Source of the DNA: Nitratireductor thuwali
Lineage (GTDB): Bacteria > Pseudomonadota > Alphaproteobacteria > Rhizobiales > Rhizobiaceae
Assembly: GCF_036621415.1 (NCBI RefSeq)
Contig: NZ_CP030941.1
Span: 310,001-374,000 of the forward strand
DNA length: 64,000 nt
Reading direction: 5' to 3'
Each line of letters opens with the position of its first letter. Within the stretch, counting starts at the first letter, position 1. Of the stretch, positions 2,814-23,117 are shown piece after piece. The notes under the pieces were generated by a model that saw only the letters and a list, made by a program, of their open reading frames with translations, ran no database searches and was not told the DNA's origin. The position numbers and the translations under genes are program-made.

Positions 2814-2827
2814 TAGAGCGGTTCAGG
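2814..2827 (+). repeat. left terminal inverted repeat of IS630-family element
   Basis: TAGAGCGGTTCAGG, paired with the inverted copy at 5224-5237 (12 of 14 identical). The first two bases are the TA target dinucleotide. Confidence 0.8.
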
Positions 2828-3242
2828 TTGTATCTGAATCGGAGGGGATTCCGATTTCGGACGTTTTGTGATTCAAGATGCTGGCTGGAGTGGAGGCCAG
2901 CATCGGATGACGCGACCTCTTTCGAATGATTTGCGTGAACGTGTTGTCAGGGCGGTCGAGGCCGGCGAGAGCTGCCGGTCGGTGGCGGCTCGTTTCGGCG
3001 TTGCCGTCTCGTCGGCGGTGAAGTGGTCTCAGCGCTACCGTGCGAGCGGGTCTGTGGCGCCGGGCAAGATGGGCGGGCACCGCAAGCGCGTGTTGGAGCC
3101 GCACCGTGCCTTCATCGCCGAGCGGATCAGCCAGACGCCGCATCTGTCGCTGCACAAGCTGAAGGAAGAGCTGGCGGCGCGCGGCGTGAAGGTGTCGCAC
3201 GATACGGTGTGGCGCTTCCTGCGCCGCGAGGGGCTTCGGTTT

Positions 3243-3250
3243 AAAAAAAA
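3243..3250 (+). other. A8 slippery site for programmed frameshift in the IS630 transposase
   Basis: Eight consecutive A residues follow TTT in the frame-0 reading F-K-K-N. Frame 0 ends 16 nt further on at TGA 3264-3266, and the downstream transposase frame is +1 (or -2) relative to it and continuous with the same protein. Homopolymer slippage is an established way for IS630-type elements to make full-length transposase. A plain indel mutation would look the same. Confidence 0.6.
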
Positions 3251-3598
3251 CACTGTTCGCCCTTGAGCAGGCCCGTGCCGATATTGCCCGCCGGCGGCAA
3301 CGCTGGCGTTCTTGGCAGTCCGGTCTCGATCCGACACGGCTGGTGTTCATCGACGAGACCTGGATCAAGACCAACATGGCGCCGCTGCGGGGCTGGGGGC
3401 CGAGAGGCAAGCGCCTGCGCGGCTTTGCCCCGCACGGCCACTGGCGCACGCTGACCTTCCTCGGCGCTTTGCGCCACGACCGGCTGACGGCGCCTTGCGT
3501 CTTCGACGGACCGATCAACGGCCCGTGCTTCCGCGCCTATGTCGAGCAGCAGCTCGTGCCGGTGCTCAAACCGGGCGACATCGTCGTCATGGACATGT

Positions 3599-3610
3599 GT
3601 GGACGCCCCC
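3599..3610 (+). repeat. subterminal inverted repeat of IS1111-type element, one end
   Basis: GTGGACGCCCCC here is the exact inverted copy of GGGGGCGTCCAC at 4950-4961. It lies 5 bp inside the junction, typical of IS1111-group elements, which have subterminal rather than terminal repeats. Confidence 0.75.
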
Positions 3611-3654
3611 GTTGGTGCAAGAAGAATCTTTTCGAAGAGCGCGGAGCGTGGTCA

Positions 3655-3860
3655 GGTGCTGACATGTGTCCGGCCTCTGATGCGGCGTTCTACATGCCGC
3701 GGGCCCGTATGGGAGTTCGCGGAGCGGGTCCAATTCAATCTCGCGTGCTCAAGGCACGTATCCATGATCTGGTTTTCCCGATCCCGTCTCGTTGACCGTT
3801 GCGCCATACTCTCCGTTCGACCTTCTCACACCATGGCAGCCCGCTCGAGGAGCGGTATAG
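3655..3860 (-). ncRNA. predicted bridge RNA (seekRNA) of the IS1111-type element
   Basis: This is the non-coding stretch downstream of the transposase stop, read on the same strand. A 5' stem-loop (CCGCTC 3841-3846 with GAGCGG 3850-3855) comes first. Next is a hairpin CGTGC/GCACG (3744-3748, 3754-3758) flanked by two guides: 3761-3767 reads TCATGGA on the RNA strand and equals the left target flank 3587-3593, and 3736-3743 is CAATCTCG, equal to the right flank 4967-4974. A second hairpin GCGGC/GCCGC (3682-3686, 3696-3700) is flanked by CCCAT (from 3709-3713), equal to the element end 4962-4966, and by CATGTGT (3663-3669), equal to the other element end 3594-3600. This is the target-loop plus donor-loop design known for IS110-family guide RNAs. 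Exact RNA ends are a guess. Confidence 0.75.
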
Positions 3861-3866
3861 AGCGGA

Positions 3867-4892
3867 CTATCCTGCTATGGCCGGCGTTCGATAGGTTCCG
3901 CCTCTGGCCATCAATGCCCACACGATGCGCGCCGTCTTGTTGGCCAAGGCGACGATGACCAGCATGGGTGGCTTGCGCTCAAGCATCCGCGAAAGCCACG
4001 GATCCCCGGTCGATCCCTTCCGCATGGCCCAGCGCACGGCGGCGCTGGCCCCAATGATCAGCAGCCGTCGCAGGGTTCGCTCGCCCATTCGAGACGTCTC
4101 GCCGAGCTTCTGCTTGCCGCCCGAAGAACGTTGCAGCGGCGTTAGTCCGAGCCATGCCGCGAAGTCCCGGCCTCTCTTGAAGGTCTGAGCGGACGGGGCC
4201 AACGCGGCAAGCGCCGTCGCGGTGACCGGTCCTATACCGGGAATGGTCATCAAGCGCCTGGCTTCCGCATCCTCTCTGGCGCGCCGAGCGACCTCTCGGT
4301 CGAGCTCGGCCACTCTCGTATCCAGCGCCCGCAACTGCTCAACGAGTAGAGACAGGATCGGGCGGGCGGCTTCGGGGATGGCGGAACCCTTATCCTCAAT
4401 CGTCGCGATGAGCTTGGCCACGTGGAAGAGGCCTTGCGCAGCCACAAGTCCAAATTCCGCAAGATGGCCGCGTATTGCATTGATCGTCTGGGTCCGCTGG
4501 CGAACGACAAGATCGCGGACGCGGAACACCATTGCCGCAGCCTGCTGCTCTTCGCTCTTCACCGCCACGAACCGCATGGTCGGCCGTTGCGCAGCTTCAC
4601 AGATTGCTTCGGCGTCAGCCGCATCGTTCTTCTGACGCTTCACAAATGGCTTGACGTATCCCGGAGCGATCAGCCGGACTTCGTGCCCGAGCTTCGCGAT
4701 CTCCCGCGCCCAGTAATGGCTGCCGGCGCACGCTTCCATGGCAACCGTGCAGGCCGGCTGATCGACAAGAAAGCGAAGTACCTGATCGCGGCGAAGCTTC
4801 TTCCGGAACAGCACAGCTCCCGACCCATCTGCGCCGTGCGCCTGGAACACGTTCTTCGCCAGGTCCAATCCGATTGTGTTAACTTCCAACAT
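3867..4892 (-). CDS. IS110-family (IS1111 group) DEDD transposase
   Basis: A 341-aa, full-length transposase. The N-terminal RuvC-like DEDD domain shows D10 (TIGLDLAK), E53 (AMEACAGSHYWA), and D90 and D93 (KNDAADAEAI). A coiled segment covers about 186-211. The C-terminal half has the helix-hairpin-helix IPGIGPVTA (about 216-224) and the LTPLQRSSGGKQKLG block with the family catalytic serine near 255-256. These enzymes recombine a circular element junction with a target, guided by an element-encoded structured RNA. The start ATG (4892) has GGAGG nearby. Nothing is broken, so this copy may be active. Confidence 0.93.
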   Translation of the reverse strand: MLEVNTIGLDLAKNVFQAHGADGSGAVLFRKKLRRDQVLRFLVDQPACTVAMEACAGSHYWAREIAKLGHEVRLIAPGYVKPFVKRQKNDAADAEAICEAAQRPTMRFVAVKSEEQQAAAMVFRVRDLVVRQRTQTINAIRGHLAEFGLVAAQGLFHVAKLIATIEDKGSAIPEAARPILSLLVEQLRALDTRVAELDREVARRAREDAEARRLMTIPGIGPVTATALAALAPSAQTFKRGRDFAAWLGLTPLQRSSGGKQKLGETSRMGERTLRRLLIIGASAAVRWAMRKGSTGDPWLSRMLERKPPMLVIVALANKTARIVWALMARGGTYRTPAIAG

Positions 4893-4949
4893 GGACGCCT
4901 CCGTTCAAGTGATGATCAACGACACCACTTTGGCACAGCGATGCCGTGA

Positions 4950-4961
4950 GGGGGCGTCCAC
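4950..4961 (+). repeat. subterminal inverted repeat of IS1111-type element, transposase-proximal end
   Basis: GGGGGCGTCCAC is the exact inverse of 3599-3610. It lies 5 bp inside the CA junction, upstream of the transposase start on the minus strand. Confidence 0.75.
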
Positions 4962-5223
4962 CCCATCAATCTCGGCTCGCACAAGTCGGCCGCCGTCCGG
5001 CAGATGATCAAAGCCGCCGGCGCAAGGCTCTGGTATCTGCCCCCATACTCGCCCGACCTCAATCCGATCGAGCAGGCCTTCGCCAAGATCAAGCACTGGA
5101 TGCGCACGGCCCAAAAGCGAACCATCGAGGAGACATGGCGGCACATCGGCGGCCTCGTCTCCTCAATCCAGCCCAGCGAATGCAGCAACTACTTCCTCAA
5201 TGCAGGATATGCTTCCGTCAAAA

Positions 5224-5237
5224 CCTGAAAGGCTCTA
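5224..5237 (-). repeat. right terminal inverted repeat of IS630-family element
   Basis: Read on the minus strand it is TAGAGCCTTTCAGG, matching the left end at 12 of 14 positions. It overlaps the last codon of the transposase and the stop codon of the VOC gene. Confidence 0.8.
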
Positions 5238-8522: not shown

Positions 8523-8725
8523 GAATTTCCCGGCTGCGGCGCATTCTTGGCAAGCCATGTCGCGCACGCATCTTTCATTTCGCCATGCGACGTTTATATA
8601 ATAATGGTATCCGGTAGAGGGCAAGAACAGGCACCAACATTGTCCGCCGGATACCGCATGCCGCTTTCGGGACGGACTGTCCGCAGTTCATGAAGACCCG
8701 CAAAAGGCAGTGATCCGTTTAACTC

Positions 8726-8745
8726 GTCGCTGCATAGACAGCGAC
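8726..8745 (+). other. short hairpin in the folE leader
   Basis: GTCGCTG (8726-8732) and CAGCGAC (8739-8745) pair perfectly around a 6-nt loop, ending 17 nt before the folE ATG. It might affect translation. No known riboswitch fold is visible around it. Confidence 0.4.
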
Positions 8746-8762
8746 TACGGGAGACGCCTTCC

Positions 8763-23041: not shown

Positions 23042-23117
23042 GCGCCCATCGTCTAGCGGTCTAGGACGCCGCCCTTTCACGGCGGAAACACGGGTTCGAG
23101 TCCCGTTGGGCGTACCA
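23042..23117 (+). tRNA. tRNA-Glu (anticodon TTC)
   Basis: The 76-nt sequence folds as a cloverleaf: acceptor GCGCCCA/TGGGCGT, anticodon stem CCGCC/GGCGG (23069-23073, 23081-23085) with loop CTTTCAC and anticodon TTC at 23076-23078, T-loop GTTCGAG, and encoded CCA at 23115-23117. Its 3' 15 bases plus TTT recur at 52643-52660, so it appears to be the attachment site of a genomic island. Confidence 0.97.

Follow-up and report, generated by a model that had tools for sequence, protein, structure and literature searches.

The window analysed here is a 64,000-nt stretch of the Nitratireductor thuwali genome (contig NZ_CP030941.1, positions 310,001 to 374,000). It carries an IS630-family element on the plus strand (2814..5237, the limits being the points at which the copies in this genome diverge), and this element is interrupted by an IS1111-group element of 1373 bp at 3594..4966. 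The boundaries of the inner element follow from comparison with the empty site and from five identical copies in the same genome, and they are ambiguous by the 2-bp core CA (3594-3595 / 4967-4968). Its tnp gene, on the minus strand at 3867..4892, encodes an IS110-family recombinase of 341 aa with DEDD_Tnp_IS110 and Transposase_20 domains (PF01548, 3.5e-16; PF02371, 2.3e-23), and the closest solved structures in the PDB by sequence are those of ISCro4 (9t56) and IS621 (8wt6). In the portions of the literature drawn on here, the IS1111 group is characterized by a GL-P----S(t)G motif and a recombinase of 330-350 aa (PMC11187229) and by subterminal inverted repeats of 7-17 bp (PMC11208160). The motif is present as GLTPLQRSSG, the length of the protein falls inside that range, and the subterminal inverted repeats are exact over 12 bp, with GTGGACGCCCCC at 3599..3610 on the plus strand (the right end in tnp orientation) and the second copy at 4950..4961 on the minus strand. 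The element ends read CATGTGT (3594-3600) and CCCAT (4962-4966), and 273 bp of non-coding DNA lie downstream of tnp as against 74 bp upstream. A preliminary description of this DNA had called the insertion an IS1111-type element; the recombinase domains, the motif, the inverted repeats and the downstream non-coding region bear this out, and judged from its sequence the element is intact-looking.

The insertion lies at the Asp codon of the motif VVM-D-NLGSHK, in the DDE_3 domain of the IS630 transposase. Comparison with the empty site places the left half of the split target, TCATGGA, at 3587..3593 and the right half, CAATCTCG, at 4967..4974, both on the plus strand; rejoined, they read TCATGGA|CAATCTCG, with no duplication beyond the CA core. 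Further upstream, at window positions 3240-3270, the frame of the IS630 transposase shifts at an A8 run (tttaaaaaaaac); programmed frameshifting occurs in IS630-type elements. A second, diverged IS1111-like element with TGGACGGCCTCCGC repeats is found on contig C3 of the same genome (L006, 68% identity over the first 517 bp).

The non-coding region downstream of the recombinase gene contains a predicted bridge RNA, or seekRNA, on the minus strand at approximately 3640..3790. The guide, target and end sequences that had been named for it beforehand were all found in place. On the minus strand the putative target loop reads ...CCAGA-TCATGGA-TA-CGTGCCTTGAGCACG-CGAGATTG-AATTGG...: the 5' guide TCATGGA (3761..3767) is followed by two bases, TA, that face the core, then by a hairpin within the loop, CGTGC CTTGA GCACG (3744..3758), and by the 3' guide CGAGATTG (3736..3743), which includes the core. 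The putative donor loop, also on the minus strand, reads ...CTCCCATACGGGCC...GGCCGG-ACACATG-TC..., with the 5' guide CCCAT at 3709..3713 and the 3' guide ACACATG at 3663..3669, and this pair matches both element ends (4962-4966 and 3594-3600) as originally proposed. The two bases that follow, TC (3661..3662), are a candidate handshake guide and equal the first two target bases past the core.

Two claims about the target loop needed adjustment. The preliminary description had the two target guides cover the 15 bp of the empty target without a gap, and this 15/15 match is beyond chance: among 20,000 random 15-mers from the window, tested with the same geometry against the 227-nt region, none reached 15/15 and 22 reached 14. 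The per-position rates given below nevertheless put the guided stretch at about 13 bp, and two of the 15 matching bp are probably fortuitous. The 5' guide had also been said to stop beside the core; this is so under strict pairing, but the next bases, TA, face CA as a U.G wobble plus a match, and in 34 of 59 elements the 5' guide pairs exactly with the core.

The proposed bridge-RNA fold finds its support in covariation and not in the energy of the single sequence, which is ordinary. The structure alignment comprises 59 of 60 distinct rows, the window's sequence included and L105 left out. In it, 98.0% of the pair cells are standard and 15 of the 24 pairs have changed on both sides; one pair of the target-loop hairpin, for instance, occurs as UA 28 times, CG 26, AU three times and GC once. 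None of 500 shuffles reached the observed value in any of five measures, a test in which related sequences can exceed shuffles; in slid controls, which keep relatedness, at most 43% of cells were paired. Helix 4, in the donor loop, is invariant across the alignment and is no evidence either way. The minimum free energy of the region gave z +0.75 against shuffles, 149 of 200 shuffles being as low, and since this is no better than the shuffles, the fold energy is no evidence for an RNA. An Rfam search of the whole window at the gathering threshold returned no bridge-RNA family, only a tRNA (23042-23114) and a THF-II riboswitch (RF02977, 58.5 bits, 8715-8753).

Guides, targets and element ends were then compared across 61 elements, the window's among them. 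The elements came from 394 genomes belonging to the same family, together with a single scan of the species genome collection; these gave a starting set of 143 loci, many of them pattern or partial matches. Elements were kept if the recombinase matched over about 300 residues counted from its start, if a recognisable pair of inverted repeats stood 700-1700 bp apart, if 30 bp were available to either side and if the flanks were new to the set. Two of them, L053 and L079, have displaced ends; they entered the guide-flank and donor-end tests and were left out of the per-position and handshake tests, which thus cover 59 elements. The protein tree likewise holds 59 of the 61.

With the guide region fixed by the alignment, and the best offset granted to own and other targets alike, guides matched their own flanks at a mean of 13.85 of 17 positions, compared with 8.98 for unrelated flanks (sd 1.22, 3250 comparisons). 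The own target outscored every unrelated one in 51 of the 61 elements. Ten did not beat all unrelated targets (L043, L046, L048, L053, L079, L088, L089, L094, L116 and L122), L053 and L079 being those with displaced ends and the others poorer matches, e.g. L043 with 12/17. Because related elements share guides and targets by descent, these counts overstate independence; clustering by target leaves nine groups, and when one element per cluster was used none of 10,000 permutations scored as high. This test replaced an earlier free scan of a 280-nt stretch (own 12.5 versus other 10.6 of 15), since the scan had picked false places in some elements. Per-position rates over the 59 elements, with offsets fitted to the own target only and controls not equally fitted, show about 13 constrained bp, made up of the 2-nt core with 6 nt to one side and 5 nt to the other; at the next position outward the match rate was 0.37 on each side, versus 0.24 and 0.31 for unrelated targets. 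In tnp orientation the core is TG in 42 elements, CG in 13, AG in three and CA in one, and it agrees with the element end in 55 of the 59.

The donor guides also follow the elements that carry them. The 3' donor guide equals the element's own right end at 7/7 positions in 55 of the 61 elements, compared with 65 of 2868 pairings with differing ends, while the 5' donor guide covaries weakly (own 4.70 versus 4.35 of 6). Identity between the two bases that follow the 3' donor guide and target bases one and two past the core was seen at rates of 0.75 versus 0.37 and 0.56 versus 0.37 (p = 0.0002 for each base; 5000 permutations, 59 elements, uncorrected for relatedness), and the window's element matches at both. 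This signal agrees with the handshake of IS621, as far as the part of PMC11208158 used here describes it. The following two donor-loop bases did not vary with the target (p 0.44 and 1.0), and no significant covariation was seen across the 59 elements for the target-loop handshake positions (p 0.09 and 1.0).

Other copies, to which the preliminary description had pointed as a check, tell the same story across genomes. Outside the genome of the window the guide TCATGGA was read at 12 loci (L038, L065, L066, L067, L071, L109, L174, L175, L177, L188, L189 and L190), none of which lies at an unrelated site. At ten of them both flanks are in the same IS630-type (DDE_3) motif; at L109 and L175 this holds for the right flank only, the left flank of L175 being another element. 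Pfam searches with pieces from seven of the loci placed DDE_3 above the cut-off in L109, L174, L177, L188, L189 and L190; the piece from L175 scored below it (24.1 vs 28.6 bits) and a second piece from L188, of 54 aa, had no match. At the remaining five the motif was read in frame (VVM or VIM, then NLGSHK or NLPAHK), for L066 from the flank letters. The downstream pieces of the prey genes of L174, L177, L188, L189 and L190 each start at position 87 of the DDE_3 profile.

The decisive case for guided targeting is a copy on plasmid NZ_CP120362.1 of Chelativorans sp. AA-79. This element differs from the window's at 9 of 1373 bases (99.3% identical) and occupies the same 15-bp site. The IS630 around it is clearly a different one, matching the window's at 67% over 240 bp on one side and at 53% over 632 bp on the other. 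At L065, similarly, the element is 87% identical and its IS630 flanks 61%. L071, from Acidisoma, has 72% protein identity, the same 5' guide and the same target, yet does not group in the well-supported clade that holds the window's element; the tree is compatible with a single origin. One flank in such an IS630 site was also seen for L181 and for the outer element of L176.

The copies within the window's own genome carry less weight. There are five, 100% identical, and all lie in the same IS630 site; a search of this genome for the exact empty target found none. Of the IS630 copies, L003 is truncated at one side and L004 has 4 differing positions; the other three agree at every base, so that four of the five, L003 among them, are identical over the sequence that remains, while the sequence beyond the IS630 differs at all five loci. 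Given these identities and the differing outer flanks, we lean slightly towards a single insertion event that was copied as a nested IS630+IS1111 unit, with no repeated targeting in this genome. The 4 substitutions in the IS630 of L004, with none in its IS1111, mildly favour a separate insertion instead. Furthermore, when the last 269 bp of the IS630 were used as a query, all five matches in the genome adjoined an IS1111 copy, and no uninterrupted near-identical IS630 able to supply transposase was seen with this query. Since they possibly represent one nested unit, the own copies were dropped as five separate events; copying of such a unit leaves the cases in other genomes untouched.

Altogether, we are highly confident that the IS1111 element encodes a bridge RNA that directs its insertion into IS630 transposase genes. 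The observations behind this are the anatomy of the element, the matches of guides to targets and to element ends, the covariation of these, the covariation of the RNA structure, and the occupation of one and the same site across different IS630 genes. A bridge RNA (seekRNA) would arise from the non-coding DNA downstream of the recombinase gene and would have two loops, one to bind the target and one to bind the donor; its transcription, and its loading by the recombinase, are proposed by analogy with published work on IS621, ISEc11 and ISEc21. The target loop would pair with both strands of a site of about 13 bp (6 nt, the CA/TG core and 5 nt), which in IS630-family transposase genes encodes the second catalytic Asp together with adjacent residues (M-D-N-L). 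The joined ends of a circular form of the element would pair with the donor loop, and strands would be exchanged at the core dinucleotide without target duplication, both the circle and the exchange being modelled on the same three systems.

A bias of survival, by which IS630 genes are expendable and only insertions into them remain visible, would fit the 20 of 61 targets that lie in or beside mobile-element genes, which are expendable; we regard it as very improbable, as it fails to explain why the same codon is hit in IS630 genes that are 53-67% identical, or why guide and target are identical. Least probable of all is that protein-DNA recognition picks the IS630 site and that the RNA-like matches are captured flank remnants or chance: the 12 TCATGGA loci and the own copies are all in IS630-type genes, a choice that could be fixed without RNA, but across the 61 elements guides vary in step with targets, the loop stems covary, and the matches stand at fixed loop positions and involve both strands.

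IS1111 seekRNAs (PMC11187229) and IS110 bridge RNAs (PMC11208160) were published in 2024, and the RNA-guided element described here is a further case of these systems: every testable feature fits the IS1111 group, guide order included. According to the sections of PMC11187229 consulted, it resembles the seekRNA elements ISEc11, ISPa11, ISKpn4 and ISPst6 in its recombinase of 330-350 aa, its subterminal inverted repeats, the non-coding region downstream of tnp and a guide complementary to the top strand that lies 5' of the one for the bottom strand; two segments complementary to the two target strands, the top-strand one first, are present here. It differs from those four in its target, the second-Asp motif of IS630 transposase genes. 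ISEc21, an IS110-family element treated in the same sections, also aims at the second D of a DDE transposase and the codons near it, but it preys on IS3 and has an upstream non-coding region and a reversed guide order, whereas here an IS1111-group element preys on IS630. With IS621, on the excerpts of PMC11208160 and PMC11208158 used, it shares a two-loop RNA with two guides per loop, a core dinucleotide and handshake guides beside the core. IS621 differs in belonging to the IS110 group and in having its RNA in the other element end, an 11-bp target and a CT core, as opposed to about 13 bp and CA (TG in tnp orientation) here. A literature search over titles and abstract openings, with most subscription papers outside it, found no announcement of an IS1111 element with an IS630 target, nor of RNA-guided insertion into IS110-family transposase codons.

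Several element ends in the set are irregular. At the L038 / L182 right end a 24-bp unit stands four times in tandem in L038, and L176 has a 74-bp unit twice in tandem (2614-2687), and in both the units are bounded at or close to the core dinucleotide. A simple scan for tandem right ends picked up one of the 61 elements (L038). In five different IS1111 elements (L036/L175, L040/L186, L053, L056/L187 and L079) the same foreign CTCCCGCGATTACCCCATG stands just before the TGGA of the left inverted repeat. Judged by a reading frame in L186 and L187 (MTEYIGLDVSMKET), this sequence resembles the beginning of a further IS110-family element, one that may target the ends of IS1111 elements. Finally, the inner element of L080 (4222-5625; 47% to the query) is inserted into another IS1111, in its bridge-RNA region just past the 3' donor guide, and the right end of the outer element has 71 bp repeated in tandem, in two copies.

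The relatives aim at a variety of targets. Guides for the PHGHWKT codons of IS630-type genes were read in L041, L075, L078 and L193, with DDE_3 in pieces of all four, and the one base by which L193 (GCACGGG) differs from L075 (GCATGGG) follows the His codon of PHG in the target. L043 / L074, which have the same flanks, carry PHGHWKT-type guides yet are inserted in a YspA-like (YAcAr) gene with a guide match of 12/17; comparison of guide and site makes this a probable off-target insertion. L124 interrupts a gene of IS6 type; the piece downstream of it matches PF13610 (2.5e-27), the piece upstream has a sub-threshold IS66 match only. Targets of TTGCA-/TCGCA-type belong to 14 elements. Right-flank pieces from nine of them were tested and a transposase was found in eight and none in L127, the eight being IS5-type (PF13737/PF01609) in five cases, IS6-type (PF13610) in two and IS3-type integrase core (PF13683) in one. 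This suggests that these targets are the terminal repeats of the elements concerned.

In a further group the insertion falls within transposase genes at K-x-Q-K, with NDAADA following wherever the right flank is available: L039/L176/L177 (two copies in one genome, Mesorhizobium sp. L-8-3), L145, L149 and L154. The prey genes read as IS110-family by their motifs and, for L039, also by DNA identity to the window's element. Readings of NDAADA-aimed guides are limited to L039 and L145; both match, with CGTCGTT for AACGACG in L145 and CATCGTT for AACGATG in L039. By position, going by an alignment with ISCro4 and the part of PMC11208158 used here, NDAADA would hold the equivalents of D102 and D105 of IS621. 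At L177 the outer, interrupted element is of the window's guide class and lies inside an IS630-type gene, which makes three nested elements. The interrupted copy at L174 (genome G298) was considered as an NDAADA-aimed insertion and dropped, an unrelated element being present there. Plasmid pMHa of Mesorhizobium huakuii carries a partial relative (91%) of the NDAADA-aimed element, with a different left flank and its RNA region missing, and L197 and L198, fuller and more distant relatives on pMHa, have other guides and other flanks. At E <= 1e-150 nothing matched in 397 genomes of the order, a negative that carries no weight in a set with no known-positive genome.

At the core position the own codon of this group, where readable (L039/L144/L135/L136, all from one genome, L145 and L154), is AAA and not AAG. 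The own gene might thus escape through the synonymous AAA for AAG, which alters the core dinucleotide. This is only suggestive, since AAA is also the codon in 6 of the 15 other relatives that could be read, L156 not counted, and the group is one clade.

By a generous count, identified mobile-element sequences contain or adjoin 20 of the 61 elements; as targets are identified for these 20 only, with the GACATT, GGGTG and AAGCTG classes outside them, mobile-element targeting is not callable as general. A tentative reading, to which we give somewhat less than even chances, is that the IS1111 clade forms an RNA-guided predation web in which guide changes aim its members at functional sequences of other IS, namely the IS630 Asp codon, PHGHWKT, an IS6-type motif, the probable IS5/IS6 ends, the IS1111 bridge-RNA region and the catalytic K-x-Q-K|NDAADA motif of IS110-family transposases. 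It is weakened by the fact that NDAADA guides were read at two loci only, and by the same 20 of 61.

At this locus target, donor, core and (predicted) guide RNA can all be read in one natural insertion, which belongs to a set of 61 elements whose guides, targets and ends vary together. The set suggests guide lengths for this IS1111 clade (6 + core + 5) and natural core variants (TG, CG, AG and CA), offers covariation support for the donor-loop handshake guide, and holds pairs of elements in which a one-base guide difference tracks a codon change in the prey. It is therefore usable to study natural retargeting and gives starting points for programmable recombinases. If the predation web is real, the NDAADA group would represent an RNA-guided attack within the element's own IS110 family, its own gene being spared by AAA.
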